The notes below the pieces were generated by a model. The model ran no database searches, was not told the origin of the DNA, and worked only from the letters and a program-made list of their open reading frames with translations. This document shows positions 5,112 to 49,633 of a stretch of DNA of 64,000 nucleotides, one piece after another (position 1 is the first letter of the stretch; each line of letters begins with the position of its first letter). Origin of the DNA: Bacteroidota bacterium (GTDB lineage: Bacteria; Bacteroidota; Bacteroidia; NS11-12g; UBA955); contig JAGFIU010000036.1 in NCBI GenBank assembly GCA_024103355.1, forward strand, positions 5,001 to 69,000, written 5' to 3'. The translations under genes and the position numbers were made by a program.

Positions 5112-5522
5112 TCAACCTTTGTTTCCTTTGTTCTTTTCGTTTTCGAATTTTTTTCTTGCTGTTTGTCCAATCGGAATTGGTGACCCGTCATCATCAATTC
5201 TGACAAAAGTAATACTTGTTGTGCACGCTAATATTTCTTCTCCGCTATACAAGCTAAATCTTCGTGCTTCGATATTCATGGTAATTGAAGAACTTCCCAA
5301 TTCTTTGATTTCTCCGTATATATGAACATGCTGTCCGCTTTTAAGCGGTTTTTTAAAAACCAATTCACCTACTCTAATTGTAACCATATTTGGGGTATAG
5401 CAGTATTCACATGCAAATGCTGCTGCTGCTTCGTCAATCCATGACATCAAACGGCCTCCAAACAAGTTTCCATGGACTCCAATATCCCTGCCCATGATAA
5501 TTTTTTTTGTTAATAATTGCAT
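5112..5522 (-). CDS. Acyl-CoA thioesterase, hotdog fold (YciA-like)
   Basis: Hydrolyses acyl-CoA to free acid and CoA in the cytoplasm. The 136-residue length and the pattern GNLFGGRLMSWIDEAAAAFA (hotdog helix with the catalytic-type Asp) fit the YciA/BACH thioesterase family. VTIRVGELVFKKPLKSGQHVHIYGEI forms the following beta sheet. It starts 12 bases after the ftsZ stop, so it is probably the last gene of the murC-ftsQ-ftsA-ftsZ transcript. The substrate cannot be read from the sequence. Confidence 0.88.
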   Translation of the reverse strand: MQLLTKKIIMGRDIGVHGNLFGGRLMSWIDEAAAAFACEYCYTPNMVTIRVGELVFKKPLKSGQHVHIYGEIKELGSSSITMNIEARRFSLYSGEEILACTTSITFVRIDDDGSPIPIGQTARKKFENEKNKGNKG

Positions 5523-5534
5523 AATGGTAATGGA

Positions 5535-6911
5535 TTAATCTACATCTTTATTAAGAAACTTATTACCTGTTTCTTTAAACTTGATGTCACCATCTTTCTC
5601 TTCCAGATAAAGTTTTTGGACATTTTTTTCATCCGGAATAGGTTCAAGAACCAGTCCCATTCTTTGATACGCAGGGATATCCAAGTTATTTTGATTAACT
5701 GCATCAAAACCAATTTGGGTTTTGGGATTAGTGGGGAAACCCAGATTTGTAGCATCTATAGGAAAAAGCCCTCCATTATTTATAGTAGCAAGATTCTCTG
5801 TGTTTTTCATTGTTTTTCCGGGAAAAACAAACTGATTATTATCATTATTGCTTTCCTTATCCAGAGCATCTGTCAAATCAATCTCAATTTCATTATCTTT
5901 ATCTATTTCAATCACTAAATCATCATGAATATCTGAGATGCTGGAAGTTTTATCAAATCCTGTTGCAATAACAGTAATAGAGATATTGTCTCCAAGCCCT
6001 TCTGTTTGTGTAACTCCAAATTTCAATCTTGCTTTCTGTCCGGCAGCATTTTGGAAGAAGGCAGTAATTTGGTCAATCTCATTAGTATAAGGTTCGTGTG
6101 TGTCATAAGAGATATTGAGCAGTATATGTTTAGCACCTTCGATATCAGTGTCATCAAGCAGTGGAGAATCTAAAGCCATCTGAGAGGCATTTAAAGCGCG
6201 TTCATCACCACTAGCAATTCCTGTACCCATGATGGCCCTACCACTATTTTTCATTGCGGTTTGAACATCTCTAAAATCCACATTCAGCTTACCTGATTTA
6301 GTGATAATTTCCGCTATTCCTTTAGTAGCAGTGCATAGCACGTCATCGGCTTTTGAAAATGCTTCGGAATATCTCAGATTGTGATACATCTGAAGTATTC
6401 TATCATTTGTAATAATAAGAAGTGCATCCACATGAGGGCGTAATTCGTCAATTCCGCTTTGAGCAAGCTCAATTTTGTGCGGACCTTCATTCTTGAACGG
6501 AGTAGTAACAATTCCCACAGTAAGCAGATCTAATTCTTTAGCAAGTTTTGCAATTACAGGTGCAGCACCGGTTCCTGTACCACCACCCATTCCGGCAGTA
6601 ATAAATACCATTTTAGCATTACAACTTAATGCCTCTTTGATCTGTTCAAGGCTTTCAATAGCACATTGCTTACCTACCTCAGGTTCAGAGCCTGCACCCA
6701 AGCCTTCTGTGAGAGATGAACCCAATTGTATTTTATTTGGTATTGGACTACTTTCTAATGCCTGTGCATCGGTGTTACAGATTATAAAGTCAACACCAAT
6801 AATTCCTTTGTCGTACATATAGTTTACGGCATTCCCTCCTCCACCACCCACTCCAATTACTTTAATAATTGAACTTTGGTGCTTAGGTAAATCTACTTTG
6901 AATGTCATCAT
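5535..6911 (-). CDS. ftsZ: Cell division GTPase FtsZ
   Basis: Tubulin-like GTPase that forms the division ring. The tubulin signature GGGTGTG lies at residues 109-115, the N-terminal nucleotide-binding loop GVGGGGGNAVN near residues 20-30, and the T7-loop NVDFRDVQTAM later in the core. At 458 residues it is longer than typical FtsZ (about 380-400). A low-complexity linker rich in Asp/Asn follows residue ~320, then DIPAYQRMG, which looks like the conserved C-terminal peptide. A charged tail of about 45 residues follows, ending NKFLNKDVD. Two ATGs in tandem (6911 and 6908) could start it. It lies 24 bases after ftsA. Confidence 0.98.
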   Translation of the reverse strand: MMTFKVDLPKHQSSIIKVIGVGGGGGNAVNYMYDKGIIGVDFIICNTDAQALESSPIPNKIQLGSSLTEGLGAGSEPEVGKQCAIESLEQIKEALSCNAKMVFITAGMGGGTGTGAAPVIAKLAKELDLLTVGIVTTPFKNEGPHKIELAQSGIDELRPHVDALLIITNDRILQMYHNLRYSEAFSKADDVLCTATKGIAEIITKSGKLNVDFRDVQTAMKNSGRAIMGTGIASGDERALNASQMALDSPLLDDTDIEGAKHILLNISYDTHEPYTNEIDQITAFFQNAAGQKARLKFGVTQTEGLGDNISITVIATGFDKTSSISDIHDDLVIEIDKDNEIEIDLTDALDKESNNDNNQFVFPGKTMKNTENLATINNGGLFPIDATNLGFPTNPKTQIGFDAVNQNNLDIPAYQRMGLVLEPIPDEKNVQKLYLEEKDGDIKFKETGNKFLNKDVD

Positions 6912-6935
6912 ATTATATTCTGGTTAATAATTATT

Positions 6936-8270
6936 TTATCCTTTTTGAAAATCGTCATTATCATCATCATTTTTCAAATAATCTATAAGACTTCCTCCAA
7001 ACCCCTTCATTTTATTGAAAAACCCTCTCCCATCACCCATATTTGATTTTGTTTTGTTATAGGGGTTGGATGTTTGTTGAGAATTATTATTTACGGGAAC
7101 TTCCTTATCCATTCCAAAAATAACCAAACCGGTTCCTGTAGCAAAAATGGGACTCTTAGCTTCAGCAACAGCTCCTTTTGCAAGATGTTGATTTGGGTAC
7201 CCTATCTTAACAGCATGACCTGTAATAAATTCAAGTACCGGTCCAATATTTTTCATTTCGGCTCCTCCTCCGGTCAAAACAATACCAGCTGTTAATTTAT
7301 TTGCATATCCGCTTTGTTTAATTTCAATGTCTATCTGTTTGAACAACTCAATAAGTCTTGCGTTGATTACGAGGGAAAGATTTTTAAGACTTACCTGTTT
7401 TGGCTGTCTTCCGTTGATTCCCGGTATTACAATTACTTCATTGCTTTGGATACTATATGGGTGTGCATCTCCATATCTAACTTTCATAGATTCGCCATAC
7501 TTCTCCATAACCGCAAAAGCTTCACAGATATCTTTGGTAATTCTTTGTCCTCCTATGGGTATAACGGCAGTGTGTCTGATTCTGCCTTCATGGAATATAG
7601 CTAAATCAGAAGTTCCTCCACCAATATCCAAGATAGCTACACCTGCCATTAATTCTTCCTCAGTCAATACCGATTTTGCTGAAGCAATAGGTTCTACAAC
7701 AACATCTTCAACATTAATATCGCACTTTTGAATACATCGTTTGATGTTCTCAGCAGCAATAATCTGTCCAATAATAATATGATAGTTAATCTCTATTCGT
7801 GATCCGGGCATTCCAATAGGATCATCTGCTGCATTGCCATCCACAATATAATCCTGTGGGAGCACATGTAATATTTGGGTTCCTGGTTCTGTATTGATTC
7901 GATACATCTGCTTTCGTATCTCCTCTAATTCCTCTGCAGTAATTTCAGAATGTTGGTCAGAACGAAAAGCACCATACTGTTGGGTAAAACTATGGATATG
8001 TTTTCCGGCAATACCAACATATACACTACCAATCTCAACGTTGGAAGAACGCTGGGCTTCTTGAATGGCCTTCTTGATAGCTTCAGAAGTTTTATTGATA
8101 TTAACAACCATACCTTCATTGATTCCACCCAAAGAAGGTGTGCGGCCTACCCCCAAGATATTTATCTTGCCATTTTCATTGCGCATTCCAACAATAGCAC
8201 AAATTTTTGTGGTTCCCATATCTAAACCCACAATTACTTTGTTTTTGTTATCATCCTTTTTAATGCTCAT
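6936..8270 (-). CDS. ftsA: Cell division protein FtsA
   Basis: Actin-like ATPase that tethers FtsZ to the membrane. Actin-fold phosphate loops are visible: VGLDMGTTKICAIVG near residues 14-28 and VAILDIGGGTSDLAIF near residues 210-225. A third ATP-binding stretch is AGIVLTGGGAEMKNI near residue 325. The C terminus (GFFNKMKGFGGSLIDYL) has the character of the amphipathic membrane-targeting helix and is followed by an acidic end. It lies between ftsQ (19-base gap) and ftsZ. Confidence 0.96.
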   Translation of the reverse strand: MSIKKDDNKNKVIVGLDMGTTKICAIVGMRNENGKINILGVGRTPSLGGINEGMVVNINKTSEAIKKAIQEAQRSSNVEIGSVYVGIAGKHIHSFTQQYGAFRSDQHSEITAEELEEIRKQMYRINTEPGTQILHVLPQDYIVDGNAADDPIGMPGSRIEINYHIIIGQIIAAENIKRCIQKCDINVEDVVVEPIASAKSVLTEEELMAGVAILDIGGGTSDLAIFHEGRIRHTAVIPIGGQRITKDICEAFAVMEKYGESMKVRYGDAHPYSIQSNEVIVIPGINGRQPKQVSLKNLSLVINARLIELFKQIDIEIKQSGYANKLTAGIVLTGGGAEMKNIGPVLEFITGHAVKIGYPNQHLAKGAVAEAKSPIFATGTGLVIFGMDKEVPVNNNSQQTSNPYNKTKSNMGDGRGFFNKMKGFGGSLIDYLKNDDDNDDFQKG

Positions 8271-8289
8271 AAAGTGTTTTTCTATATAC

Positions 8290-9069
8290 TTAATTACGTT
8301 TTTTTGCTACAACTTGTCCGTCAAAACTCAAATCAATCACACTATAATCATCCCAACTTTTCTTTGTAAGTGCCTGATTATAAAATAGTTTTAACTTTTC
8401 AAGTTTGCTTTTTATATTGTCCGGTTTTCCAACAACAATGGTATGATTTCCAACTTGAGGAATCAACAGAAAGCCCTGATTTTTATCTACATAAACCTGT
8501 TCAATCTGAGCTTTCCAAAAGGGTTCTGCATTTATAAATGAGAAAATATCGAGTGCTCCTTTCAAAATTTCGGAATGGATATAATTTGAGTCATGGGCTT
8601 GTTCATCTACAGCACCGCTTAATACAGACACTCGAACAGAATAATTCGGAACTGTTGGAATCTTTAATCCATTTTTTTCTACATAGTAACTTTCACCCTG
8701 TTGATTAATCACTCTGAATAGTGGTTCTCTTTGATGAACATCAATCACTAATTTTCCATCATTTCCTAGAAAGATATTTGCTTTTGCTACATAAGGACTT
8801 GACCTCAAATTATAAAGCATCCGGTAAGTGTTCAATTGTTTCAAGGATTTACCTATTAAATCATTTGGACTGGTCACATTAGAAGCGATTTGCAACACAT
8901 GTGTATTTGTAAGAAAATAAGTTCCATCCTGCGGCTCTAGTTTAATCACCACTTCACTACAAACGACAGTTTTTTGTTTTATTGTAGCCCAAATTGTGAT
9001 AGTAATGAGCAACAGCAACCCAATTGCAGGTAAAATCCATTTTTTAAATTGAGCCGTAAAGTTCTTCAT
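8290..9069 (-). CDS. ftsQ: Cell division protein FtsQ/DivIB
   Basis: Single-pass inner-membrane divisome protein. It has a short cytoplasmic N terminus, one membrane helix (WILPAIGLLLLITITIWA), then a periplasmic POTRA-like domain and a FtsQ/DivIB domain (REPLFRVINQQGESYYVEKNGLKIP, about residues 120-145). I prefer the ATG at 9069; the frame extends to a TTG at 9102, which adds 11 residues. The start lies inside the end of murC (26-base overlap), indicating coupled translation. Sequence conservation in this family is weak, so position between murC and ftsA supports the call. Confidence 0.9.
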   Translation of the reverse strand: MKNFTAQFKKWILPAIGLLLLITITIWATIKQKTVVCSEVVIKLEPQDGTYFLTNTHVLQIASNVTSPNDLIGKSLKQLNTYRMLYNLRSSPYVAKANIFLGNDGKLVIDVHQREPLFRVINQQGESYYVEKNGLKIPTVPNYSVRVSVLSGAVDEQAHDSNYIHSEILKGALDIFSFINAEPFWKAQIEQVYVDKNQGFLLIPQVGNHTIVVGKPDNIKSKLEKLKLFYNQALTKKSWDDYSVIDLSFDGQVVAKKRN

Positions 9070-10441
9070 ATATTTTTTTAACAGGTTGGGTAATACGGTC
9101 AATATCTCCTGCTCCCATTATCAAAAATAATGAGGGAGGGTTTTTTCTTATTCTTTGATAGATTTGGTCAGGAGTGAAAACTCCTTCACAATTTTTTAAT
9201 TTTTCACAAATAACTCTGCTGTTAATACCCTCAATAGGTCTTTCACGGGCAGGGTATATATCCATCATCCAACACTCATCCAACATACTCAGACTTTCTA
9301 TAAATCCATCCATGAAATCTCGAGTTCTACTAAAAAGATGAGGTTGAAACACTCCGGTTAGCTTATATTTGGGATAGGTTTTCTTAACAGAATTAATGAT
9401 TGCTTTGAGTTCTGTGGGATGATGCGCATAATCATCAATCACAATATGTGTTTTGGTTTCAAAGAGTTTTTCAAAACGTCTTTTTACACCTTTGAAACCG
9501 GCAATACAAGCAGATGCAGTAGAAACATTTAGATTTAAAGAATCTATCACTCCCAACACAGCAGTAGCATTTTCAGCATTGTGTTCTCCTCCGACTCCCA
9601 AAGAAACATTTAAATCTTCAGTCTTACTTTTCCAATTAAATGCAAAGTGATTTTCTTCATAATGCGGGTCAGAATAATGGTAATCTGCTTCAATGTCTTT
9701 ACCATAAGTCTTTGAACTTATTTTTGAAGGTATTGGTAAATTGATTCCGTATTTCTGAATCAAAATTCCTTGCGGCTCAATACATTGAACAAATTCTTCA
9801 AATCCTTTTCTGAAACCCTCTTTTGCACCATATATGTCCAAATGGTCGGCATCGGTCGATGTAACAATTGCAATATCGGGATGTAGTTGAAGAAAAGAAT
9901 GGTCAAATTCATCTGCTTCTACAACTGTAATTGGTTTGGACAATAATTCTTTTTTGTCCGTAATTGAGATATAATTAGTTCCAAAGTCTTGGCTTATTCC
10001 ACCTAAAAAAGCAGTAAAATTGATGTCGAAAGCTGACAATGCTTTGGTAACAAGGGTTGTGGTTGTCGTTTTACCATGAGTTCCAGCAATAGCAATAGTA
10101 AAAGTATTGCGAGAAATCATTCCAAGAACTTGAGCGCGTTTGTATAAATTTATACCTTTAGATTTGAGAAAAGCGATTTCTCCAAAATCTGGCGGTAAAG
10201 CAGGTGTCCAAATACAAATACTTTCATGGGGTAATGAAACAAACTCAGCAGGAATTTTTGCAAAATCATCTATATAGTGTATTTCCATTCCTTCGTTTTC
10301 CAACTCGACACACAAAGGGGAGCGGACTTTGTCATAACCGTAGATATACACCCCTTGTTGGAGCATATATCGCGCAATTGCACTCATACCTATTCCTCCA
10401 ATACCTAGAAAATAAGCCCTTTTTACTTCTCTTAAATCCAT
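9044..10441 (-). CDS. murC: UDP-N-acetylmuramate--L-alanine ligase
   Basis: Adds L-alanine to UDP-MurNAc in cytoplasmic peptidoglycan precursor synthesis. The Rossmann motif FLGIGGIGMSAIA is at the N terminus, and the ATP loop AGTHGKTTTTTL is near residue 120. The Mur central region EADEFDHSFL and the C-terminal IDDYAHHPTE stretch are also present. The frame is open to 10507, but a promoter-like TACTTTTG sits at 10461-10468, so I use the ATG at 10441 (465 residues), which begins MDLREVKRAYFLG. It is first in the division cluster; murG and ftsW are not next to it. Confidence 0.97.
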   Translation of the reverse strand: MDLREVKRAYFLGIGGIGMSAIARYMLQQGVYIYGYDKVRSPLCVELENEGMEIHYIDDFAKIPAEFVSLPHESICIWTPALPPDFGEIAFLKSKGINLYKRAQVLGMISRNTFTIAIAGTHGKTTTTTLVTKALSAFDINFTAFLGGISQDFGTNYISITDKKELLSKPITVVEADEFDHSFLQLHPDIAIVTSTDADHLDIYGAKEGFRKGFEEFVQCIEPQGILIQKYGINLPIPSKISSKTYGKDIEADYHYSDPHYEENHFAFNWKSKTEDLNVSLGVGGEHNAENATAVLGVIDSLNLNVSTASACIAGFKGVKRRFEKLFETKTHIVIDDYAHHPTELKAIINSVKKTYPKYKLTGVFQPHLFSRTRDFMDGFIESLSMLDECWMMDIYPARERPIEGINSRVICEKLKNCEGVFTPDQIYQRIRKNPPSLFLIMGAGDIDRITQPVKKIYEELYGSI

Positions 10442-10460
10442 TCGCATTGCTTTGGGAACG

Positions 10461-29541: not shown

Positions 29542-31266
29542 TTATAAACAACCTTGTTTTCCAAGCGTGAACAAAAACTCCAGTCCTCCCTCTTTTCTAT
29601 TCTTTGCGGTAATATCTCCCTTGTGAAACAACACCGCATTTTTTACGATAGACAAGCCCAATCCGGAACCACCCGTATCCCGGGTTCTTCCTTCGTTGAT
29701 GCGGTAAAACCGTTCAAAGATTCTATTCAAATGCATTTCGTTGTCAACACCAACTCCTGTATCATAAAAAGAAAAATAATAATAATCCGAATCTTCATCA
29801 TACACACTAATATTAATTTTAATGTTTTCTCCGGCATAACGGATGGCATTATCTATTAAATTTTTAAACAAAGAGAATAATAAATTTTCATTCCCTAATA
29901 TAATTAAGGTATCGGGCAAATGTTCTATTATATCAATGTTCTTTTTAGTGAGTTGGTTTGCTACCAATTCTTTGATTTGGAAAATCAATTTCTTGATATC
30001 GACTTTTTGTAATTCAAAAGTTTGAGCTGCTTCTTCCATTTTTGCGATAAGACCCATATCTTGGATGATATCAGAAAGGACGAGGGTTTGCTGAAAAGCC
30101 CGTTGGATAAAATAGTTTTGTTTTTCCGGAGATAAAGATTGAGCCAACACGGTTTCAAGATAAGCTCTAATGCCGGTGATTGGGGTTCGGAGCTCATGAG
30201 CAATATTACCGGTCATTCCCCTTTTCAATTGTTTGGTTTTTTCTTGCTTGGTAATATCGGTAATGATGATTTCAAAACTGTTATTTTCAAAAATATTTGC
30301 CTTTATGGAAAAGTGTTTTCCCTGTTTTTGTAATACTTGTTCAAAATAATGTTGTTGATGCTGATGGAGGAATTCTTGTAATTCTATAAAATTTTCATCT
30401 CTCAAAATAATAGCAGCCTCGCTAGAAACCTCATCCGTGATAGTATTTAAGTATTGAATAAATAGTCCATTATAATATTCAACTTCTTTTGCAGCAGATA
30501 AAAAACAGATTCCTTCTTCTAACACTTGGATGTGCTGGAGCAATTTTTGTTTTTCCTGCAATACAATCTTTTGACTTTCTTTCAGCGAATGATAATTTTC
30601 TACTATTTTTCCGGCAATTTCTCCAATTTCATCATTAGGGAAATGAAGTTGTGCCACCTGATTATTGTTGGTATATAGCACAAAATCTCTTAATTGTTTA
30701 ATGGTATTTCCCAAGCGCTTGGTGGTGATATGAATGAAAAAGAGAAAAACACCAAAAAACAATATTATAAAATAAAGAAAAGCATTATCGGATTTTAAAA
30801 ACTTTTGGAGTTGAATATTGTAGGGTAATGCTACGCGAATAAAACGGCTGTCGGTCTTTTTTGCAAAATAGAGATATTTTTGTTGGTTGGAACGAGACAA
30901 ACGTATATCTGAACCCTCCCCAAATTGTATAGCTTCCTTAATTTCGGTTCTGTCCAAGTGATTGGAAAGATGTTCAAAATCGTTAATAGAATTGTCGAAC
31001 AAAACTTTACCTTGTAAATCAATAATGGTAATTCTAAGGTCTGGTGGTAAAAGGCCTTGAAGTTGATCCATTTTTGAAACCAAACCGAGCTGGTTTTGGG
31101 GCAAACCGGCATAAATAATTTCGGTATAAGCTGCCAATTTTTCTTCTAATGCTTCCGTCTTAAAATTTCTTTCCCGTATTTGTTCAAATAATATTATTCC
31201 TATTGTAAAGAGCATAAATAAAACTCCAAAATATAGAAATAACTTTTGTCGGTATCTCAATTTCAT
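29542..31266 (-). CDS. phoR: Phosphate-responsive sensor histidine kinase, PhoR-like
   Basis: A 574-residue inner-membrane kinase. Two membrane helices (about residues 8-25 and 163-180) flank a periplasmic domain of roughly 135 residues. A HAMP-like linker and a PAS-like region follow. The phospho-acceptor His lies in GNIAHELRTPITGIRAYLETV. ATPase motifs are NLIDNAIRYAGE (N box), YDTGVGVDNE (G1) and GGSGLGLSIV (G2). It overlaps the response regulator gene by 4 bases and ends the pst-pho cluster, which supports the PhoR call. Confidence 0.9.
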   Translation of the reverse strand: MKLRYRQKLFLYFGVLFMLFTIGIILFEQIRERNFKTEALEEKLAAYTEIIYAGLPQNQLGLVSKMDQLQGLLPPDLRITIIDLQGKVLFDNSINDFEHLSNHLDRTEIKEAIQFGEGSDIRLSRSNQQKYLYFAKKTDSRFIRVALPYNIQLQKFLKSDNAFLYFIILFFGVFLFFIHITTKRLGNTIKQLRDFVLYTNNNQVAQLHFPNDEIGEIAGKIVENYHSLKESQKIVLQEKQKLLQHIQVLEEGICFLSAAKEVEYYNGLFIQYLNTITDEVSSEAAIILRDENFIELQEFLHQHQQHYFEQVLQKQGKHFSIKANIFENNSFEIIITDITKQEKTKQLKRGMTGNIAHELRTPITGIRAYLETVLAQSLSPEKQNYFIQRAFQQTLVLSDIIQDMGLIAKMEEAAQTFELQKVDIKKLIFQIKELVANQLTKKNIDIIEHLPDTLIILGNENLLFSLFKNLIDNAIRYAGENIKINISVYDEDSDYYYFSFYDTGVGVDNEMHLNRIFERFYRINEGRTRDTGGSGLGLSIVKNAVLFHKGDITAKNRKEGGLEFLFTLGKQGCL

Positions 31267-31958
31267 GATGCATCCATATTAAACCTATACCCATAACCGG
31301 TTTTATTGGAGATGACAGAAGCATAAGCACCCAACTTTTTTCTCAACCGGGCAATATGAACATCAACTGTTCTATCGGTAATAAAAGGAGTTTCACTCCA
31401 TAACTTATTAATAATATTTTCTCTGGAAAACATTCTTTCCGGATGCTTGGCGAGTAAAGATAATAATTCAAATTCCGTTTTGGTCAAAGGAATAGGATGA
31501 TGGTTAATTTTTAGTTCCTTCAAATTGAAATTCAAACTAAAATCCCCAAAACTCAATATATCTTCTTTGATTTTATGGGAATCGGATTTTTCGGCTCTTT
31601 TCAAAACCGCTTTCACTCTGGCTATTACTTCTTTTATGGAAAACGGTTTTGAAATATAATCATCGGCACCAACAGAAAATCCGGTTAATAAATCATTCTC
31701 GGTATCCTTGGCCGTTAAAAAAATAATGGGAGTAACAAGACCGTCCTTTCTAATTTTCTCTGCCATTTTATATCCGGACATTCCACCCATCATAACATCC
31801 AAAAGAATTAACTGAAATTCATGAAGGGGTTGGTTCAAAGCTTCTTCTGCTGAAATTGCTGTGGTCACCTCAAAGTTTTCATTTTTAAGATTAAATTCCA
31901 GAATTTCTGCAATGCTGCTATCATCATCGACAATTAAAATACGATCAGGCATATCCAT
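31263..31958 (-). CDS. phoB: Response regulator, PhoB-like (OmpR family)
   Basis: A 231-residue two-domain regulator. The receiver domain has acidic ILIVDDDSSI, the phospho-acceptor in LILLDVMMGGMSG (~residue 55) and Lys in FSVGADDYISKPF (~105). The C-terminal winged helix has LTKTEFELLSLLAKHPERMFSRENII ... DRTVDVHIARLRKKL. Its place directly after phoU supports PhoB. A TATCTTTG element in the 33-base gap suggests it also has its own promoter. Confidence 0.93.
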   Translation of the reverse strand: MDMPDRILIVDDDSSIAEILEFNLKNENFEVTTAISAEEALNQPLHEFQLILLDVMMGGMSGYKMAEKIRKDGLVTPIIFLTAKDTENDLLTGFSVGADDYISKPFSIKEVIARVKAVLKRAEKSDSHKIKEDILSFGDFSLNFNLKELKINHHPIPLTKTEFELLSLLAKHPERMFSRENIINKLWSETPFITDRTVDVHIARLRKKLGAYASVISNKTGYGYRFNMDAS

Positions 31959-31991: not shown

Positions 31992-32663
31992 TTAGGGTTC
32001 TAATTTACCTTTATGCTTTAAAACCTTGGCTTCAATAAAAAATACAATCTCTTCCACAATATTACTACAATGGTCGCCTATGCGCTCCATTTTTCGGATA
32101 AGCATCATCATTTCTAAGCCACATTTTGCATCCTTTCCTTCTTGTCCTATCTGTTCCGATAGCACCTGAAAAGCATTGAGATAGATTTGATTTACCTCTG
32201 TATCTTTGGCCAAAATTTTTCCGGCATTTTTCGCGTTCTCTGAATTTAAAGCCACTAAGCTGTCCGTAAGCATATTCAAGAGCAAATCGAACATTTGTTC
32301 CAATGCCAAAGCCTCTTTCATTTTAGTGGTGAAAGGATGACATTCTTTTTCTACAACATACCGGGCAACCCCTGCTGCATAATCTGCAATTCTTTCTAAA
32401 GTAATGCTGATTTTCATTATGGATAATACCAAACGCAAATCAATGGCCACAGGACTGTAAAGGGCAATATAATGTTCGCAATTACTATCGATTTTCAACT
32501 CATAGGCATCCACTCTTTTTTCCAGACTAATAATTTCCAATGCAAGTTCCACATTATTGTGCAACAATGCTTTTTTCGATTTTTCCACTTGAGAAATAAC
32601 CAACTTCCACATCTGGTTGATTTCTTCTTTTAAAAAATTTAATTCTTGTTCGTTGGGTTTCAT
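31992..32663 (-). CDS. phoU: Phosphate signalling protein PhoU
   Basis: A 223-residue all-helical protein with two PhoU repeats. Metal-binding-type motifs are SLEKRVDAYE and the paired RIADYAAGVARYV (~residue 90) and RMERIGDHCSNIVEEI (~190), matching the family E/DxxxD pattern. It links the Pst transporter to PhoR, repressing the regulon when Pi is plentiful. Its ATG overlaps the end of mgsA by 4 bases. Confidence 0.94.
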   Translation of the reverse strand: MKPNEQELNFLKEEINQMWKLVISQVEKSKKALLHNNVELALEIISLEKRVDAYELKIDSNCEHYIALYSPVAIDLRLVLSIMKISITLERIADYAAGVARYVVEKECHPFTTKMKEALALEQMFDLLLNMLTDSLVALNSENAKNAGKILAKDTEVNQIYLNAFQVLSEQIGQEGKDAKCGLEMMMLIRKMERIGDHCSNIVEEIVFFIEAKVLKHKGKLEP

Positions 32664-33133
32664 GATAAAATTCTGTTTGAATAATTTTCTATTTTTTCGG
32701 TAATAAGGGGTTGATAAGATTGATGAAATAAAGGCGAGGTAATAATAAAATCGGCCGTTGACCGAGAGCAGGCATACACTATATTATACAAGGTGGCTAA
32801 TCTTAATAATGCCTTGATGTCCACATCATGTGCTTGAGGTTCCATTGCATCCCAAAAGAAAATTAGAATATCCACTTCTCCATTGCAAATTAATGCTCCT
32901 AATTGTTGATCGCCTCCTAAAGGTCCGGATTTTAACTTGGTAATATTGAACAAAGGGTGATTATTGTTTTGGGGAACACATTTCTTTAATTTTTCTTCCA
33001 CCAGCTGTCCGGTGGTGCCTGTACACACCAAATGATAAGGTATCAGATGCTCAAAATTCTCCTCTATCCATTCCAATAATTCTTGTTTACAATTATCATG
33101 AGCCACAAGGGCTATTCTCTTTTTTTGATTCAT
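32660..33133 (-). CDS. mgsA: Methylglyoxal synthase
   Basis: Converts dihydroxyacetone phosphate to methylglyoxal and free phosphate in the cytoplasm. The 157 residues keep the family motifs: IALVAHDNCK (His12, Asp13), CTGTTGQL (~residues 37-44), SGPLGGDQQLGA (Asp75, the catalytic-base position) and AHDVDIKALLR (His102, Asp105). STAD near residue 125 ends the active-site set. It lies between pstB (23-base gap) and phoU (4-base overlap), so it is part of the phosphate operon. Small departures such as DAME for the more usual DPLE do not touch the catalytic positions. Confidence 0.92.
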   Translation of the reverse strand: MNQKKRIALVAHDNCKQELLEWIEENFEHLIPYHLVCTGTTGQLVEEKLKKCVPQNNNHPLFNITKLKSGPLGGDQQLGALICNGEVDILIFFWDAMEPQAHDVDIKALLRLATLYNIVYACSRSTADFIITSPLFHQSYQPLITEKIENYSNRILS

Positions 33134-33156
33134 TTTCTTCAGCTTAATCTTTCTAT

Positions 33157-33903
33157 TTATCCAAACCTACCGGTAATATAATTTTGAGTGGTCTCCTTAT
33201 CCGGATTTAAAAACATCTTTTTGGTGTCACTGTATTCTACCAATTCTCCCATCATAAAGAAACCGGTTTTATCGCTGACTCTTGCCGCCTGTTGCATATT
33301 GTGCGTTACAATAACAATAGTATAATTGCTCTTCAATTGATGAATCAGCTCTTCAATTTTGGATGTGGAAATAGGATCTAATGCCGAGGCGGGTTCATCC
33401 ATTAACAAAACAGAAGGAGCAACCGCCAGAGCCCTGGCAATACATAAGCGCTGTTGCTGTCCTCCGGAAAGTTCAAATGCGGATTTATGGAGTTTATCTT
33501 TTACTTCATCCCATAATGCAGCAGCCATCAAAGATTCCTCTACTTTCTGTGCAATAAACTTTTTATCTTTTACTCCATTCACTTTTAGCCCATAAGCTAC
33601 ATTTTCAAAAATGGACTTTGGAAAGGGATTAGGTTTTTGAAACACCATGCCTACATCTTTTCTTAGTTCGTCCACATCAATAGATTTATCATAAATATTT
33701 TTTGATTTTATCAAACATTCTCCTTCTAAGCGGGTATTGTTTATCAAGTCATTCATTCGGTTGAATAGCCTTAAAAAAGTAGATTTTCCACATCCTGATG
33801 GACCAATAAAGGCGGTAACGGTATTAGGTTCCATTTTCATGCTGATATTTTTTATCGCATGAAAATCCCCGTAATAAAAGTTAATATTTTTTGTTTCTAT
33901 CAT
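33157..33903 (-). CDS. pstB: Phosphate ABC transporter ATP-binding protein PstB
   Basis: A 248-residue ABC ATPase that powers Pi import. Walker A is [12 protein letters not shown], the Q loop is [16 protein letters not shown] (the PNPFP form is characteristic of PstB), the signature is [16 protein letters not shown], and Walker B is [13 protein letters not shown]. It ends NYITGRFG, the usual PstB C terminus. It lies 10 bases after pstA. Confidence 0.97.
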
Positions 33904-33913
33904 TTCAAATTTT

Positions 33914-34768
33914 TTAATGTTGTTTCAATTTCTTATTTAATCTTTGTCTCAAAAAGGCAGCCAACAGATTGAAAAAAAGGACTATCATTATTAAAACCAA
34001 AGCTGTTCCATAAGCAATAGGCCGAGAAGCTTCCACATCGGTTCCACTGGTGGCCAAAACATACAAATGATAAGGCAATGCCATTGCCTGACTAAAGATG
34101 CTGTCCGGCAAGCTGGGTAGAAAATAAGCGGCAACCGTAAATAATATAGGAGCGGTTTCTCCGGAAACTCTTCCCACCGACAAAATGATACCTGTTAAAA
34201 TATTGGGCATGGCACTGGGCAAAATCACCTTTCTTATGGTTTGAAGTTTTCCGGCACCTAAAGCGTAGCTACCTGTCCGATATGATTCAGGAACGGCTTT
34301 TAAGGCTTCTTCTGAAGTTCGAATGATAATGGGTAGAGTTAATAATCCTAAGGTTAAAGAACCGGCTATAATCGAATCTCCAAATCCTAATTTATTAACA
34401 AATAGGGCCATTCCAAACAATCCAAAAACAATAGAAGGAATACTTGCCAAATTATTGGTCATCATCCTAATAAAACGAACAATGCGACCATTTCCGGCAT
34501 ATTCTACAGTATAAATAGCAGACATAACACCAAGAGGAACTGCAAATATTAAACTGCCCACAACCAAATAAAAGGTACCTACTATGGCCGGGAATATTCC
34601 TCCTTCCGTCATTCCTTCTTTAGGAGCTGTAGTTAAAAATTCCCAATCTATTACCTGAATTCCATTAATGGCGATGAAACCTAATATACTTATTAAAACG
34701 CCAACGATTAATAAGCTAAACAATCGGAAAACGAAAAATGCTATATTTTGTTTTATTTTTTTATTCAT
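33914..34768 (-). CDS. pstA: Phosphate ABC transporter permease PstA
   Basis: A 284-residue inner-membrane permease with about six helices. The EAA-type coupling motif is [27 protein letters not shown] near residue 155. [28 protein letters not shown] is the conserved PstA stretch. It starts 11 bases after the pstC stop. Confidence 0.96.
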
Positions 34769-34779
34769 CTTTTCTATGA

Positions 34780-35973
34780 CTAATAATTTTTCTTTTTAGA
34801 AATAATTTCTGCTATAATGGAGAAGACCATGGTAATCAAGAATAATACACATCCTAATAAAAACAAAGCTTGATAATGTGTTCCACCTGCAGGGGCCTCT
34901 CCTAACTCAGCAGCAATGGTGGCCGGAATAGTGCGTACTGAATTAAAAATGGATGTGGGCATTACTGCAGCATTTCCTGTTACCATCAATACCGCCATTG
35001 TTTCCCCTATGGCACGTCCAATACCTAAAACTACCGCAGCCGAAATGCCGGATTTAGCATAAGGAATCACGACTTTATAAATTGTTTGCCATTGAGTAGC
35101 ACCTAAAGCCAAACTTGCTTCACGCATAGCTCTGGGAGTATTGCGCATGGCATCTTCAGCAACAGAAATAATGGTAGGTAAGGCCATGATGGCTAAAATC
35201 AAACTTCCCGTTAAGGCAGTTTCCCCGACCGAAAGATGAAAAGTTTTTTGAACTAAGGGAGACAAAACGACTAATCCGAAAAAACCATAAACTACGGATG
35301 GAATGCCCGACAATAATTCAATAATGGGTTTAAGTAATTTACGAATTTTTTCATTGGCCAATTCTGACAGATAAATTGCTACTCCTAAACCAAGAGGCAA
35401 GGCGAAAATTATGGCTAAAATACTCACTAACAGTGTTCCCAAAAATAAAGGCATAACACCAAACAAAGGCGATGGTGTAGCGGTAGGCAACCATTCCTTT
35501 CCCAGAAAAAAATCGGATAAAGTCAAATGCTTTATATGAAGAACCTTTATGCCCTTGGTCAATGTAGGTGCATATTTTTGTGGAATATAAGCAATGATAT
35601 TTTTATCCGATTTTATTTCTTCTCCTAATTTTTCGGGGAGCAATTGGTAATCTTTTCCAAGTTCCTCTTCAGAATATTTTTGAAAAATTTCATCTATCCT
35701 GAATATTTTTATAGCCTCATCATTCCCTCCAACAGTTTTCCAATTCGTAATTTCTGAATCAAAAATTTCTTTAATTTCTTTAGAACTTAATTCGTTAATG
35801 GGATTGGAAGCATGAACATAAAGAGAATATCCCTTCTCGACAGCCGGACTGTTAAAAAATCCTATTCCTTCTTTAAAAAGGAATATAGAAATAAACAGTA
35901 TAGCGATTCCAGTAATGGCACCGCTAACTGTCAATAATTGTTTAATAACTATGTTTGAAATCTTTTTTATCAT
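34780..35973 (-). CDS. pstC: Phosphate ABC transporter permease PstC with substrate-binding-protein-like loop
   Basis: A 397-residue permease, longer than the usual ~310. After the first membrane helix (residues ~14-33) comes a periplasmic stretch of about 120 residues. It contains HASNPINELSSKEIKEIFDSEITNWKTVGG, which aligns with HPANKVSQLTREQIEGIFTGKIKNWKELGG-type sequence in the PstS of this operon. The ordinary permease domain follows, with EDAMRNTPRAMREASLALGATQWQTIYK as the coupling motif and GRAIGETMAVLM. It sits between pstS (31-base gap) and pstA (11-base gap). Confidence 0.94.
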   Translation of the reverse strand: MIKKISNIVIKQLLTVSGAITGIAILFISIFLFKEGIGFFNSPAVEKGYSLYVHASNPINELSSKEIKEIFDSEITNWKTVGGNDEAIKIFRIDEIFQKYSEEELGKDYQLLPEKLGEEIKSDKNIIAYIPQKYAPTLTKGIKVLHIKHLTLSDFFLGKEWLPTATPSPLFGVMPLFLGTLLVSILAIIFALPLGLGVAIYLSELANEKIRKLLKPIIELLSGIPSVVYGFFGLVVLSPLVQKTFHLSVGETALTGSLILAIMALPTIISVAEDAMRNTPRAMREASLALGATQWQTIYKVVIPYAKSGISAAVVLGIGRAIGETMAVLMVTGNAAVMPTSIFNSVRTIPATIAAELGEAPAGGTHYQALFLLGCVLFLITMVFSIIAEIISKKKNY

Positions 35974-36004: not shown

Positions 36005-36898
36005 TTATTTCAAACCTACATATCCCACTTCCTTAACTATATCTTGTCCCTCCGGAGAAAGTACAAAATCAACAAATGATTTTACCTTATTTTCTGATGC
36101 TCCAAGATAGTAGTAAAACAATGGACGAACTATAGGATAGGTTTTATTCTTAGCATTTTCGAAAGATGGAGCCACAAATGTTTTTCCTTGATCATAAGAC
36201 ACTTGTAAAGCCTTGACATTACTGTTTAAATAGGCCAATCCAACATAAGCAATAGCTCCATTCGTTTGTCCAACTGATTGAATAATGGCACCATTAGCAG
36301 GCATACTCATGATTCCGGTCATGTGGTTCTTATTTTGTAAAACACTTTCTTTGAAAAATTCATAAGTTCCTGATGATGTTTCTCTTGCATAAGGAATAAT
36401 TTCCATATCATCTCCTCCAAGTTCTTTCCAATTTTTGATTTTACCTGTAAATATTCCTTCGATTTGCTCACGGGTAAGTTGGGATACTTTATTAGCAGGA
36501 TGAACAATTACCGCCATAGCATCATAAGCAATCACCACTTCTTTTACTTCTTTTCCTGCATCTTGAAGTTTCTGTTTTTCATCAAACTTCATGCTTCTTG
36601 ATGCTTGGGCAATATCTGTAGTCCCTTCCATTAAGGATGCAATTCCCACACCACTACCTCCGCCTGTTACGGTAATAGAAGCCTCTTTATTGGAGTTCAT
36701 ATAAACTTCGGCTGCTTTTTGTGTTAATGGTAACACCGTTTCAGAACCTTTAATTTTAATATTTTCTACATCTGTAGTTGGGGTATTTGCTGTCCTTGTT
36801 CTCTCATTTTTAGTGTTACAGGCTAACAAAGTAATCCCTGTAATTGTCAATAGAAGCATACTTTTCATTTTCATTTTTCTTTTCATTTTTCTTTTCAT
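36005..36898 (-). CDS. pstS: Phosphate-binding lipoprotein PstS
   Basis: A 297-residue periplasmic Pi-binding lipoprotein. The lipobox LLAC is near residue 27. Ligand-site segments are IKGSETVLPLTQKAAE, VTGGGSGVGIASL and YARETSSGTYEFFKE, all typical of PstS. The beginning MKRKMKRKMKMKSM offers five in-frame ATGs within 14 codons, so the exact start is uncertain. A candidate Pho box lies in the 71-base gap upstream. It is the second gene after the porin. Confidence 0.95.
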   Translation of the reverse strand: MKRKMKRKMKMKSMLLLTITGITLLACNTKNERTRTANTPTTDVENIKIKGSETVLPLTQKAAEVYMNSNKEASITVTGGGSGVGIASLMEGTTDIAQASRSMKFDEKQKLQDAGKEVKEVVIAYDAMAVIVHPANKVSQLTREQIEGIFTGKIKNWKELGGDDMEIIPYARETSSGTYEFFKESVLQNKNHMTGIMSMPANGAIIQSVGQTNGAIAYVGLAYLNSNVKALQVSYDQGKTFVAPSFENAKNKTYPIVRPLFYYYLGASENKVKSFVDFVLSPEGQDIVKEVGYVGLK

Positions 36899-36948
36899 TA
36901 ATTTGATGCAAACTTGAATATATGTTGTTAAGTTCGTTTAAAGTTATT

Positions 36949-36964
36949 GTTACATTTTGGTTAC
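36949..36964 (-). promoter_or_regulatory. Candidate Pho box before pstS (GTAAC-N6-GTAAC)
   Basis: Two direct repeats of GTAAC (minus strand) with an 11-base period, in the porin-pstS gap. The same arrangement is found upstream of the porin at 38284-38299. The 11-base direct-repeat design matches known PhoB/PhoP binding sites. Confidence 0.55.
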
Positions 36965-36969
36965 GATTT

Positions 36970-38244
36970 TTAGAACTTATACTGAAGTCTTAATGTGAAC
37001 ATATTATCTTTTTTATCCGTATCGTAGCCGCTCAAGTTTCTTGATGTTTCATTCTTAACCATATCATAATAAGCAGTTGCTTTTAAGTTATTATTTATCT
37101 TCCAAAGCAATCCAAAACCAATAGTTTGATAAGAAATTTCGGCTTTGCCTGTTTGGTTCAATCCTATATCATCTTTAGAAATTTCTGAATTAGGATCATA
37201 CCAATCATATTTTACTACTGCCGAAAATGGAATATTTTTTAAATCTTGAACTAAACTTACATAACCTCCATTGAAATGGCGAATATATAAATCATAATTT
37301 CCTGCAGTTGCACTATTAGGGCTTTTACTTCCTCCTTTATCTCCGGGTTGCGTTCCCGTAATAAATTCTCCACTTAAAGTTGTAAGACCAAGCATACTCA
37401 TAACTTCAAACTGTGCATCTATACCGAAATACTCTCTTCCGGCATTTTTACCTATATTACTTGAAGAACTATCTACAAGGAAAAGGTTGTTATGTGAAGT
37501 AAAGATATTTTGTGTACCTTGGTATACTCCTCCGTTATAGTAGGAAAATCCACCACTGAGTTTTATTATTTTATTGAAACTTTTAGTAAGAGATAAGTGC
37601 CCAATAAAATCTTTTCTATTCTTTATATCAGATTTTATTCCATTTCCTGCAAAAACGCCTGCATCTAACTTTAAAAAATTTAATGGTGAATTTTTATTCG
37701 GTTTTAAAGAAATCATAAATCCTAAATCTCGCTCTTCAGGAAAAAGGGTGGTAACCACTCTTGCTCTCTCCGGAGCTTCTCTTGAAGAGGAAGAACGCTC
37801 TATCTCATATCCAAACGGTCTGTTGAAAACACCCACTTTCAATGAACTTTGGCTAAATTTTTTATCTTTTATTTGAAGGTAGGCATCTTTTAATCCTAAA
37901 CCCTTATCCGTCATATCTATTTGAAAAACACCGGTGGCAATGCCCTTTTCATAGGAAAATTTCAATCTTCCTCTCCTAATTCCAAAACGATTAAAATCTT
38001 CATTCTTGTTTATGTTGGATGAACCAACTTTCAATGAAGCATTAGGTTGACCATATTGAATTTGTCCCTGAAAATAACCTGAAATTTTCAAGCCTTTAAA
38101 TTTTTCTAACTTATTTACCTTTTCTTCTAATGCTTGAAGCCTTAGTGAATCATTCTTTTGTGCAAAAATTTGTGTTGTTCCTAAACAAGTTCCGGAAAAT
38201 AGTAGCATTGCTACCCATTGTTTTTTTACTTTTACTTTCATCAT
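36970..38244 (-). CDS. Phosphate-selective porin (OprO/OprP family)
   Basis: An outer-membrane barrel of about 425 residues with a signal peptide (MLLFSGTCLGTTQIFAQ). A short coiled coil (RLQALEEKVNKLEKF) follows. Barrel strands with the family pattern then come: ISGYFQGQIQYG, FGIRRGRLKFSYEKG and KVGVFNRPFGYEIERSSSSREAPER. It ends in YKF, a terminal aromatic as in barrel proteins. The open frame extends to a TTG at 38268, but ATG 38244 (or 38241) is the better start. Placement upstream of pstS plus a Pho-box-like repeat indicates phosphate uptake. Confidence 0.88.
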   Translation of the reverse strand: MMKVKVKKQWVAMLLFSGTCLGTTQIFAQKNDSLRLQALEEKVNKLEKFKGLKISGYFQGQIQYGQPNASLKVGSSNINKNEDFNRFGIRRGRLKFSYEKGIATGVFQIDMTDKGLGLKDAYLQIKDKKFSQSSLKVGVFNRPFGYEIERSSSSREAPERARVVTTLFPEERDLGFMISLKPNKNSPLNFLKLDAGVFAGNGIKSDIKNRKDFIGHLSLTKSFNKIIKLSGGFSYYNGGVYQGTQNIFTSHNNLFLVDSSSSNIGKNAGREYFGIDAQFEVMSMLGLTTLSGEFITGTQPGDKGGSKSPNSATAGNYDLYIRHFNGGYVSLVQDLKNIPFSAVVKYDWYDPNSEISKDDIGLNQTGKAEISYQTIGFGLLWKINNNLKATAYYDMVKNETSRNLSGYDTDKKDNMFTLRLQYKF

Positions 38245-38268
38245 TTTTTTTATTATTTGATGCCGCAA

Positions 38269-38676
38269 AAGTCTATTGAGAATGTTACGTGGTAGTTACA
38301 ATAATTTTAAGATTCTGAAAAATTAACGGACCATGAGAAGATGATTATTATGGTTACATGAATTCCTGTTTTCTTTGAGATACTAAGGTTCTCAAACAAT
38401 CATTATGTTTAAATTTGGAAACAATAATAAGACATTGATGATATATACAGTTTCTCTCTGTTTATAAGTCTCAGTATTTGTAAAGTAGATTTCTAAATAT
38501 TAATGACTCATTAAAATTGAGAGGGTGATTGCTCATGATTTAGAGTAAAATTATTTGAGGCCTTTTAGTCCGAGAGTATACTCAATTTCGATAGGTTTAG
38601 CAGAGTACATTTATCTCTCCGATGCAATTAGTTTAGATGTCTAATTCAATGTATAATTTTGAAAATCGTTTCTTTT
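38269..38676. other. 408-base gap with the porin regulatory region
   Basis: Holds the candidate Pho box (38284-38299) close to the porin start. I see no ORF or RNA in the rest. Confidence 0.5.
38284..38299 (-). promoter_or_regulatory. Candidate Pho box before the porin (GTAAC-N6-GTAAC)
   Basis: Direct GTAAC repeats with an 11-base period, followed downstream on the minus strand by TAGACTTTTG, a near match to the -7 element. The spacing would place the repeats about 13 bases from the -7 element, as expected of an activator. Confidence 0.55.
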
Positions 38677-39567
38677 TTACTTAGCTCTTTGACGTTTTGA
38701 ACCTATTCTAATAAAAATTGGTTTAATAAAACTAACCAATATTACTGTTATTGTACCAATTGCCAAACCAAAAAATATTTCTCTAACAATTAAGGGAATA
38801 CCAGTTAAGACCCCATGAAAATAGTCAATATAGTGAATAAAAATTCCTCCTGAAACAAGAATCAATGCAATAGTACCCAGTACTTCAAGTGTTCTGACAA
38901 TAACCGGCAGCCCCTTAACTAATATGGTTCCAATAGTGCTTGCCCATTTATTACCATTAGTTGAGTGAATAAGTCTATATCCCATATCATCCATCCGCAC
39001 CAAGATTGCTACAAGTCCATAAACCCCAACAGTTGCTATTAATGCTACAACTGAGACGGTCATAATTTGGATTAGTAAATTCTTGTCTAACACTGTACTT
39101 AACGCAATTATTACAATCTCTAAAGAGAGAATAAAATCAGTTTTAATTGCTGCACTCACTTTTTTCTTCTCTTCAGTTAAAGCATTTGCAGGGCCGGCAG
39201 TAGTATTCACATGTGAGAGATGTTTATGCTTCTTATGGAAGACCAATTCAATTATTTTTTCGGCTCCTTCGTATGAGAGATATATACCGCCTATAACTAA
39301 AAGAATTTTGATTACAAATGGAGCATATAAATTAAGAATTAGAATTAGAGGAACAATGATTAGTTTATTAATAAATGAGCCTTTACTAATTGCCCACAAC
39401 ACCGGCAACTCTCTAGAAGGTGCATATCCCGTAGCTTTTTCTGCATTTACTGCCAAATCATCTCCAAGAATTGCCGCTGTCTTTTTTGTTGCTACTTTTG
39501 AAGCAACAGCAACATCATCCATCAAAGCTGCTATGTCATCTAGAAAAGTAAAAATGCTCACTCCCAT
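38677..39567 (-). CDS. DUF808 family inner-membrane protein (YedI-like)
   Basis: A 296-residue protein starting MGVSIFTFLDDIAALMDDV and continuing KVATKKTAAILGDDLAVNAEKATG, the conserved DUF808 N terminus. About six membrane helices follow. The frame opens to a TTG at 39600, but ATG 39567 gives the family start. Function unknown. It lies 10 bases after a tiny ORF (39578-39715) and has a promoter-like element upstream of that. Confidence 0.88.
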   Translation of the reverse strand: MGVSIFTFLDDIAALMDDVAVASKVATKKTAAILGDDLAVNAEKATGYAPSRELPVLWAISKGSFINKLIIVPLILILNLYAPFVIKILLVIGGIYLSYEGAEKIIELVFHKKHKHLSHVNTTAGPANALTEEKKKVSAAIKTDFILSLEIVIIALSTVLDKNLLIQIMTVSVVALIATVGVYGLVAILVRMDDMGYRLIHSTNGNKWASTIGTILVKGLPVIVRTLEVLGTIALILVSGGIFIHYIDYFHGVLTGIPLIVREIFFGLAIGTITVILVSFIKPIFIRIGSKRQRAK

Positions 39568-39577
39568 TTCTGTCTTA

Positions 39578-39715
39578 TTAATTAATTTGGTAAGTAACAA
39601 TCGAATTATTTAACCCTACAAGATTATTGATTTGTCTTCGTAAGTTAGTGTTTTCTTCCAATAATAGTTGCGCTAAAACGTGGTACCCAAGATCTAGAAA
39701 ACACCTATGTATCAT
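39578..39715 (-). CDS. Small coiled-coil-like ORF just upstream of the DUF808 gene
   Basis: A 45-codon frame beginning MIHRCFLDLGYHVL. Hydrophobic heptads run through LLLEENTNLRRQINNLVGLNNSIV, suggesting a short coiled coil. Its stop is 10 bases before the DUF808 ATG, and TATATTTG lies 49 bases upstream of its own ATG. It might be a coupled small protein or a leader ORF. I have no family for it; it could be chance. Confidence 0.3.
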   Translation of the reverse strand: MIHRCFLDLGYHVLAQLLLEENTNLRRQINNLVGLNNSIVTYQIN

Positions 39716-47117: not shown

Positions 47118-47200
47118 TCTATAATTTATAATTAAGAGAAGCTAAAAAAGTGTATTTTCGCACCCTCAAAAATTTAAGCAAAAAAAAGAAAAGATTGATT

Positions 47201-49633
47201 ATGAATGATTTTTTGATTTACTTAATTCCTATTATAGGAGCAATAGGTTTGCTAATAATGGCACTTAAATCTGCATGGATAAGCAAACAAGATGCAGGCG
47301 ATGCTAAGATGCAAGAATTAGCAGGATACATTGCCAAAGGTGCAATGGCATTTTTAAAAGCAGAGTGGAAAATTCTAACCTATTTCGTAATTATTGCCGC
47401 TATTTTATTGGCATGGAGCGGAACTCTGGTTGACACCTCCAGCCCTGTTATTGCTATTTCATTTATTATCGGTGCATTTTTGTCTGCATTGGCAGGCTAT
47501 ATTGGAATGAATGTAGCAACCAAAGCCAATGTGCGCACTACACAAGCTGCTAAAACAAGTTTAGCAAAGGCTTTGAAAGTATCTTTCACCGGTGGAACTG
47601 TTATGGGATTAGGAGTAGCAGGTCTTGCAGTAGTTGGATTAGGTTCAATTTTTATTGTACTCTATAACATATATGTTATTAATACAGGTGGTGATGTAAA
47701 CGGCAAAGAAATGGAACTTGCCCTCGAAGTGTTAGCAGGTTTTTCTCTTGGTGCTGAGTCAATCGCGCTTTTTGCCCGTGTCGGAGGCGGTATTTATACA
47801 AAAGCAGCTGACGTTGGGGCTGACCTTGTTGGAAAAGTAGAAGCAGGAATCCCTGAGGATGATGTAAGAAACCCCGCTACCATTGCTGATAACGTAGGTG
47901 ACAACGTAGGTGATGTTGCCGGAATGGGCGCAGACCTTTTTGGCTCTTATGTAGCTACAATCCTTGCTACAATGGTTTTAGGTCGTGAAATTGAATCATT
48001 TGATAATTTTGGCGGAATCGCTCCCATACTCTTACCTATGGTAATTGCAGGACTTGGGCTTATATTCTCTATCATAGGAACTTTCTTTGTTAGAGTTAGA
48101 AACGAAAATGACAGTGTACAAAAAGCATTGAATTTAGGTAATTGGTCTGCTATTATTTTGACCGGTATTGCTGCTTTTGGTGCTGTAAAAGTGCTTTTGC
48201 CGGAAACAATGGAAATCAGAGGATATGAATTCAGTAACATGGATGTATATTATTCTATTGTGTTAGGGTTAATTGTGGGTGCATTGATGAGCATTGTAAC
48301 AGAATATTATACTGCAATTGGCAAACGCCCTGTAAATTCAATTATTAAACAATCTGCAACAGGACATGCTACCAATATTATTGGAGGGCTTTCTGTTGGA
48401 ATGGAATCAACCGTTATCCCAATCATCGTTTTGGCAGCAGGGATCTATGGTTCTTATGAATTTGCAGGATTATACGGAGTGGCAATTGCTGCTGCCGGTA
48501 TGATGGCAACAACAGCTATGCAACTTGCCATTGATGCTTTTGGACCTATTGCAGACAATGCAGGAGGTATTGCAGAAATGAATCAACTGCCTGAAGAGGT
48601 GAGAGGAAGAACAGACAACCTTGATGCTGTCGGCAATACAACCGCTGCAACAGGAAAAGGTTTTGCCATCGCTTCTGCTGCTTTGACTTCATTAGCACTT
48701 TTTGCTGCTTTTGTTGGCGTGGCCGGAATCGAAAGTATTGACATATTTAAAGCAAAAGTTTTGGCAGGTTTGTTTGTTGGAGCTATGATTCCGTTTATTT
48801 TCTCTTCTTTGGCAATTGCTGCCGTTGGAAGAGCTGCCATGGATATGGTAAACGAAGTACGCAGACAGTTCAAAGAAATCAAAGGAATTATGGAATATGA
48901 AGCTCGCCCGGAGTATGAGAAATGTGTTGCAATTTCTACAAAGGCTTCCATCAGAGAAATGATTTTACCCGGTGCTATTGCACTGATTACTCCGGTAATT
49001 GTTGGATTTATCTTCGGTCCTGAGGTTTTGGGAGGACTTTTGGCAGGCGTTACCGTTTCCGGTGTTTTGATGGGGATTTTCCAAAACAATGCCGGTGGTG
49101 CTTGGGACAATGCGAAAAAATCTTTTGAAAAGGGTGTTGAAATTAACGGAGAAACTTTTTATAAAAAATCAGAACCTCACAAAGCCTCTGTAACCGGTGA
49201 TACAGTGGGTGACCCATTCAAGGACACTTCAGGTCCTTCTATGAATATCTTGATTAAATTAATGTCAATTGTGGCATTGGTAATTGCTCCTCACTTGGGC
49301 GAAAGTGAGACAGCTATGACAGGTGGTGATTGTTGCAAAGGCAAAGCAAACATGGAAATGTGCATGGACAATAATGACCATTGTATGTCTGACGACACAA
49401 CATGTTGCTGCTCAGATGATATGAAGTGTGAAACCGACTGCAAAGTGAACAAAGGCAAAGTTGCTTGTACCTGCAAACATGAAATGAACGGAAAATCTTG
49501 TTGCAAAAAAGACATGAAAATGGATGGTTCAAAAGCATGTTGTAAAAAGGATATGGACAAAAAAACCTGCTGCAAAAAAGATATGAAAAAATCAGAAGGC
49601 AAGAAAGGCGCATGTTGCAGCCACAAGAAATAA
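47201..49633 (+). CDS. hppA: Membrane-bound ion-pumping pyrophosphatase with Cys-rich C-terminal tail
   Basis: Hydrolyses pyrophosphate to pump H+ or Na+ across the membrane. The 810-residue protein has the usual ~700-residue core of about 16 helices. The PPi-binding acidic loops are [19 protein letters not shown] and [18 protein letters not shown], and the second site is [16 protein letters not shown]. Ala instead of Lys in [12 protein letters not shown] suggests the potassium-dependent type. After the normal end [13 protein letters not shown] comes a tail of 111 residues with 19 Cys, 11 Met and 3 His, including three CCKKDM repeats. I start it at ATG 47201 ([10 protein letters not shown]). 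A strong terminator follows. Confidence 0.96.
49298..49630 (+). other. Cys/Met-rich C-terminal extension of the pyrophosphatase
   Basis: Codes for 111 in-frame residues beyond the catalytic core: 19 Cys, 11 Met, 3 His, many Asp and Lys, and nearly no hydrophobic residues except Met. CC pairs repeat toward the end. It looks like a soluble metal- or thiol-reactive tail. Both ends of known M-PPases face the periplasm, so the tail probably lies outside the cytoplasm. Confidence 0.75.

Follow-up and report, generated by a model that had tools for sequence, protein, structure and literature searches.

A methylglyoxal synthase gene within a Pst/PhoU phosphate operon of Bacteroidota

The operon of PstSCAB-PhoU and PhoB-PhoR is a known system, described in E. 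coli and, as BF2757-BF2753, in Bacteroides fragilis (PMC3547664). All of its parts are present in the window analyzed here, a 64,000-nucleotide stretch of a Bacteroidota contig, where, as in the known operon, they form one directional run behind 11-bp repeats resembling PhoB boxes. The window departs from the known operon in that an enzyme gene, mgsA, lies between pstB and phoU, and in that a porin gene and phoBR belong to the same run. The new part is mgsA within the operon, an arrangement for which no earlier report was found in the part of the literature covered.

A described metabolic counterpart is the low-phosphate methylglyoxal bypass of E. coli and Clostridium sphenoides, the latter using the methylglyoxal pathway only under phosphate limitation (PMC8600716). 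Phosphate inhibition of methylglyoxal synthase (MgsA) in characterised species, mentioned in the initial annotation of the locus, is documented for the E. coli enzyme, on which 0.3-0.5 mM Pi acts as an allosteric inhibitor, and methylglyoxal production is thought to be important under phosphate limitation in that it releases the phosphate held in dihydroxyacetone phosphate (PMC11850910). Methylglyoxal formation has also been described as a means of raising phosphate turnover during starvation, and the methylglyoxal reductase gene yeaE is lower in a phoB mutant than in the wild type (PMC3465305). The reaction and the expected low-phosphate trigger are common to the described bypass and the window; however, the response in E. 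coli and C. sphenoides has been described in terms of the enzyme being released from inhibition, whereas in the window the gene itself sits in a phosphate operon.

Composition of the locus and identity of MgsA

The genes run on the minus strand in the order porin-pstSCAB-mgsA-phoU-phoB-phoR, with pstS, pstC, pstA, pstB and phoU co-directional and contiguous but for mgsA between pstB and phoU. The features are as follows:

29542..31266, minus strand: phoR histidine kinase (NF053855, 578 bits, above cut-off)
31263..31958, minus strand: phoB response regulator (NF053854, 315 bits, above cut-off)
31992..32663, minus strand: phoU (TIGR02135, 174 bits), overlapping mgsA at ATGA
32660..33133, minus strand: mgsA, methylglyoxal synthase, 157 aa, ATG start (NF003559, PF02142, solved methylglyoxal synthase structures, catalytic residues)
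33134..33156, minus strand: 23-nt gap between pstB and mgsA, without a PhoB-box-like repeat
33157..33903, minus strand: pstB, phosphate ABC transporter ATPase (TIGR00972, 408 bits)
33914..34768, minus strand: pstA permease (TIGR00974)
34780..35973, minus strand: pstC permease with an extra N-terminal PBP-like stretch (TIGR02138; PF12849 at residues 36-91)
36005..36898, minus strand: pstS phosphate-binding lipoprotein (TIGR02136)
36949..36965, minus strand: PhoB-box-like 11-bp direct repeat CGTAACCAAAATGTAAC upstream of pstS, an exact match, conserved
36970..38268, minus strand: Porin_O_P-type outer-membrane porin, probable first gene (weak PF07396 match; kept at this position in most relatives)
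38284..38300, minus strand: PhoB-box-like 11-bp direct repeat TGTAACTACCACGTAAC upstream of the porin, an exact match, conserved in relatives

PstS, PstC, PstA, PstB and PhoU each score above the cut-off of their own curated model, and the models used for PhoB and PhoR (NF053854 and NF053855) are Bacteroidota-specific. The porin probably starts at an ATG near 38244, because the listed TTG at 38268 falls in a promoter-like stretch. The initial annotation had placed mgsA between pstB and phoU with a 4-nt overlap, as the coordinates bear out, and had named His12, Asp13, Asp75, His102 and Asp105 as active-site residues, all of which are found at those positions and align with E. coli MgsA.

Some further features of the region were observed. 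PstC of the window exceeds the PstC model in length by ~100 aa, its N-terminal stretch resembles part of a phosphate-binding protein, and the pstC reading frames of relatives are similarly long. Where pstS starts, a 12-bp tandem repeat of 3.1 copies (36862-36899, minus strand) codes for MKRKMKRKMKMK, so that several ATGs are in frame. A DUF808 membrane protein gene on the same strand (38677-39600, minus strand) immediately precedes the regulatory region of the operon, and a membrane H+-pyrophosphatase (PF03030), a phosphate-linked enzyme, is encoded ~9 kb from the operon (47150-49633, plus strand).

In a profile search, MgsA of the window scored 191 bits with NF003559 (cut-off 84) and also matched Pfam MGS (PF02142); its 146.1 bits with TIGR00160 fall just below the 146.9 cut-off, a shortfall of 0.8 bit that is perhaps due to ~10 extra residues. 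The solved chains nearest in sequence are the methylglyoxal synthases of Thermotoga maritima, Elizabethkingia and E. coli, and the best 26 PDB matches of an AlphaFold2 model (pLDDT 86.8, pTM 0.83) are all methylglyoxal synthases, with TM 0.68-0.82 by query length. Lys16 and Asp95 are likewise present, all seven residues (His12, Asp13, Lys16, Asp75, Asp95, His102 and Asp105) are invariant among the MgsA relatives, and the protein carries the GTTG, SGPLGGDQQ and FFWD motifs. The fold and catalytic residues are common to E. coli 1b93 and T. maritima 1vmd, with ~45-52% identity to structures of this type over the aligned structures; unlike those enzymes, MgsA of the window has a ~10-residue insertion before K-SGPLGGDQQ, and its gene lies in a pst operon. 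The insertion is common to one branch of Bacteroidota MgsA, including members that are not pst-linked. The profile, residue and fold comparisons confirm the predicted product of 32660-33133 (minus strand) as a methylglyoxal synthase with a complete catalytic set.

No glutathione-type glyoxalase I (TIGR00068) scored above cut-off in the window's genome or in 11 related mgsA genomes. Disposal of methylglyoxal via DJ-1 was considered and rejected, the sole DJ-1/PfpI match in the window's genome being a likely lipoprotein. A methylglyoxal sink is therefore not evident; disposal routes other than glutathione-type glyoxalase I are possible.

Conservation and origin of the pstB-mgsA-phoU order

When 84,980 species genomes were scanned, 13 relatives at 60-72% identity were obtained, and pstB-mgsA-phoU was found in 11 of these 13 loci, all on uncultured Bacteroidota contigs, one of which (L008) ends within phoU. 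The only other mgsA-bearing genome found in the window's genus, G026, also has pstB-mgsA-phoU. The suggestion that the same gene order be sought in other Bacteroidota thus met with a positive answer in 12 further genomes, though a rare and patchy one, and this recurrence argues that the arrangement is not due to chance. Most relatives have porin-pstSCA upstream and phoB-phoR downstream; phoB and phoR were not seen in the stretch available for L003, and phoB of L009 lies ~4.4 kb farther along. Of the 12 operons measured, 10 retain the 4-nt overlap of mgsA and phoU, and the divergence of MgsA follows that of the other proteins of the operon (r 0.71-0.86). Each of the 13 relatives has a single mgsA, and a search of the window's genome for a second copy found none.

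In one relative, L002, the order is SDR gene-mgsA-porin-phoB-phoR (5147-10447), with no pst genes nearby, no PstB in the genome at E <= 1e-70 and no Pho box upstream of mgsA. In the MgsA tree all operon copies and L002 form one clade (support 100/99) within the insertion-marked branch, the other members of which are not beside pst genes. As a separate observation, a Leptospirales contig (L013:6001-6462) carries an insertion-type MgsA of 60% identity away from pst genes, reflecting either lateral transfer or mis-binning.

Among the 29 next-best Bacteroidota PstB loci, phoU directly adjoins pstB in 28 (phoU was undetected in L078) and mgsA occurs in none, suggesting that mgsA was added to a standard pst operon. 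Only two of 70 genomes of the window's family have mgsA, PstB was found at E <= 1e-70 in none of 19 sampled genomes of that family and neither of two from the order, and across an even sample of 392 genomes of the phylum the operon form was seen in the window's own genome only; the 12 other insertion-bearing genomes of this sample were checked and none is pst-linked. That mgsA lies generally in pst operons of Bacteroidota was rejected, given 12 close non-operon relatives and 20 other-family loci without pst linkage. Plasmid-borne MgsA relatives share <60% identity, and the one Bacteroidota plasmid neighbourhood inspected holds glycolysis and glycogen genes and lacks pst. The patchy distribution suggests that the operon may move or be lost as a unit.

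PhoB-box-like repeats and a second linkage

The PhoB box has an established architecture in E. coli, that of an 11-bp direct repeat. A (C/T)GTAAC unit directly repeated at 11 bp (YGTAAC-N5-YGTAAC) was first spotted by eye in the porin upstream regions of relatives; P-values for those regions are hence not independent, while independent evidence comes from the pstS sites, the +33 unit and the count over the genome. Allowing <=1 mismatch, YGTAACNNNNNYGTAAC has two matches in the window, both exact, upstream of the porin and of pstS. These are also the only two exact matches in the 2.3-Mb genome, falling in the operon's two regulatory gaps; the pattern reversed as a control has five. Of the 11 relatives tested, 10 have sites with <=1 mismatch ahead of the first gene, of pstS or of both (reversed control, 0-2 matches per locus). 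The site upstream of pstS in the window has a third unit (CTTAAC) at offset +33 (36927-36932); a unit at exactly +33 occurs in 11 of 22 sites, and no other offset besides 0 and 11 reached four sites. L003 has an additional box directly upstream of pstB-mgsA-phoU, and L009 has no convincing box. A scan for sigma-70-type promoters was non-discriminating, with 43 matches in the region and 42.3 in shuffles.

Because gene order and the 4-nt overlap are conserved, because 23 nt is cramped for a promoter and holds no match to the repeat pattern, and because the boxes precede the porin and pstS rather than mgsA, the locus reads as an operon. Co-transcription of mgsA with the pst genes under phosphate-starvation control is well supported at the level of sequence, as is the membership in the Pst/PhoU operon proposed by the initial annotation.

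A further linkage was found in a family of the phylum sample in which the FMO bacteriochlorophyll protein is present in all ten genomes tested, and which we therefore identify as green sulfur bacteria. Eight mgsA genes in this family lie near pst/pho genes and group in a single clade (100/98), separate from that of the window. Their neighbourhoods are phoU-mgsA-pstC-pstA-pstB-phoU in L096, Porin_5-pstS-mgsA in L114, L129 and L131, mgsA-Porin_5-pstS in L127, and mgsA-NUDIX facing pstS-phoB-phoR in L121 and L126, with mgsA near phoB in L123; in two genomes (G108 and G425) the pst/pho-linked gene is an extra copy besides a standard mgsA. When 11-bp direct repeats of any sequence were searched for, the same box, of the CGTAAC type, emerged ahead of porin-pstS-mgsA in L114 and L129. 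Co-transcription of mgsA is less sure in L129, where a terminator-like hairpin separates it from pstS. Judged by tree and gene neighbourhoods, the mgsA-pst/pho linkage in some FMO-bearing green sulfur bacteria is a second, independent one.

Proposed role of MgsA in the phosphate operon

With the gene order and its conservation, the intact active site, the conserved boxes and the second linkage in hand, we consider that mgsA probably functions as part of the Pst/Pho operon, induced by PhoR-PhoB together with PstSCAB and PhoU, releasing Pi and controlled at two levels. PhoB binding, induction, enzymatic activity, Pi inhibition and a physiological benefit would all be expected of such an operon. 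At low phosphate, PhoR-PhoB would switch on transcription at the 11-bp direct-repeat boxes that precede the porin and pstS. The PstSCAB importer, MgsA and PhoU would then be produced together, with translation of MgsA probably coupled to that of PhoU. MgsA would convert dihydroxyacetone phosphate to methylglyoxal and Pi, returning Pi to the cell and draining triose phosphates that would pile up as glycolysis stalls without Pi. On recovery of Pi, PhoU/PhoR would shut off the operon and, if the enzyme is like that of E. coli, Pi would inhibit MgsA directly. Starvation-induced Pi release combined with relief of triose-phosphate build-up is the most likely role, the Pi-release part of which we infer from the known biochemistry.

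The broader proposal, that MgsA has twice independently been dedicated to the phosphate-starvation regulon, in Bacteroidota and in green sulfur bacteria, with the cell ordering by transcription the dephosphorylation of its triose phosphates as a Pi source, and with MgsA possibly also an internal Pi sensor tied to PhoU, is put forward tentatively.

A rather unlikely alternative, sharing the operon and box evidence, is that Pho-controlled mgsA acts as a valve against sugar-phosphate stress, venting dihydroxyacetone phosphate that builds up when glyceraldehyde-3-phosphate dehydrogenase is short of Pi, with Pi gain playing no part. Methylglyoxal synthesis is a known low-phosphate bypass (PMC8600716, PMC11850910), and sequence does not separate venting from Pi release because reaction and timing are identical; heavy venting would be costly, however, since no glyoxalase I was recognised. 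It is quite improbable that an accidental insertion placed mgsA between pstB and phoU, where it would be carried along with no phosphate-related role: the rare and patchy distribution and the location of most Bacteroidota mgsA away from pst genes would fit such a passenger, but order and overlap have been retained at 60-70% protein identity, the active site is intact in a gene that is single in each genome, mgsA still lies beside porin-phoB-phoR in L002, where PstB was not found, and linkage arose independently in green sulfur bacteria. Least probable of all is that MgsA or methylglyoxal acts on PhoU or PhoR as an intracellular read-out of Pi and not as a bulk Pi source, a notion that could draw on the matched amounts implied by the overlap with phoU, on Pi binding by characterised MgsA and on the insertion marking the MgsA branch of the window, but that insertion is common to branch members outside pst operons, and the ordinary catalytic residues are fully conserved.

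Pho-controlled Pi release by MgsA, our preferred reading, bears on the old proposal that methylglyoxal synthesis aids phosphate turnover in starvation, which has rested on Pi inhibition in E. coli and Clostridium. The placement of mgsA behind PhoB-box-like sites makes this idea directly testable. If the predicted induction holds, the deliberate production of a toxic aldehyde is a means by which some bacteria recover phosphate, and these operons would provide natural systems for asking whether methylglyoxal at low phosphate is a survival strategy or a by-product.
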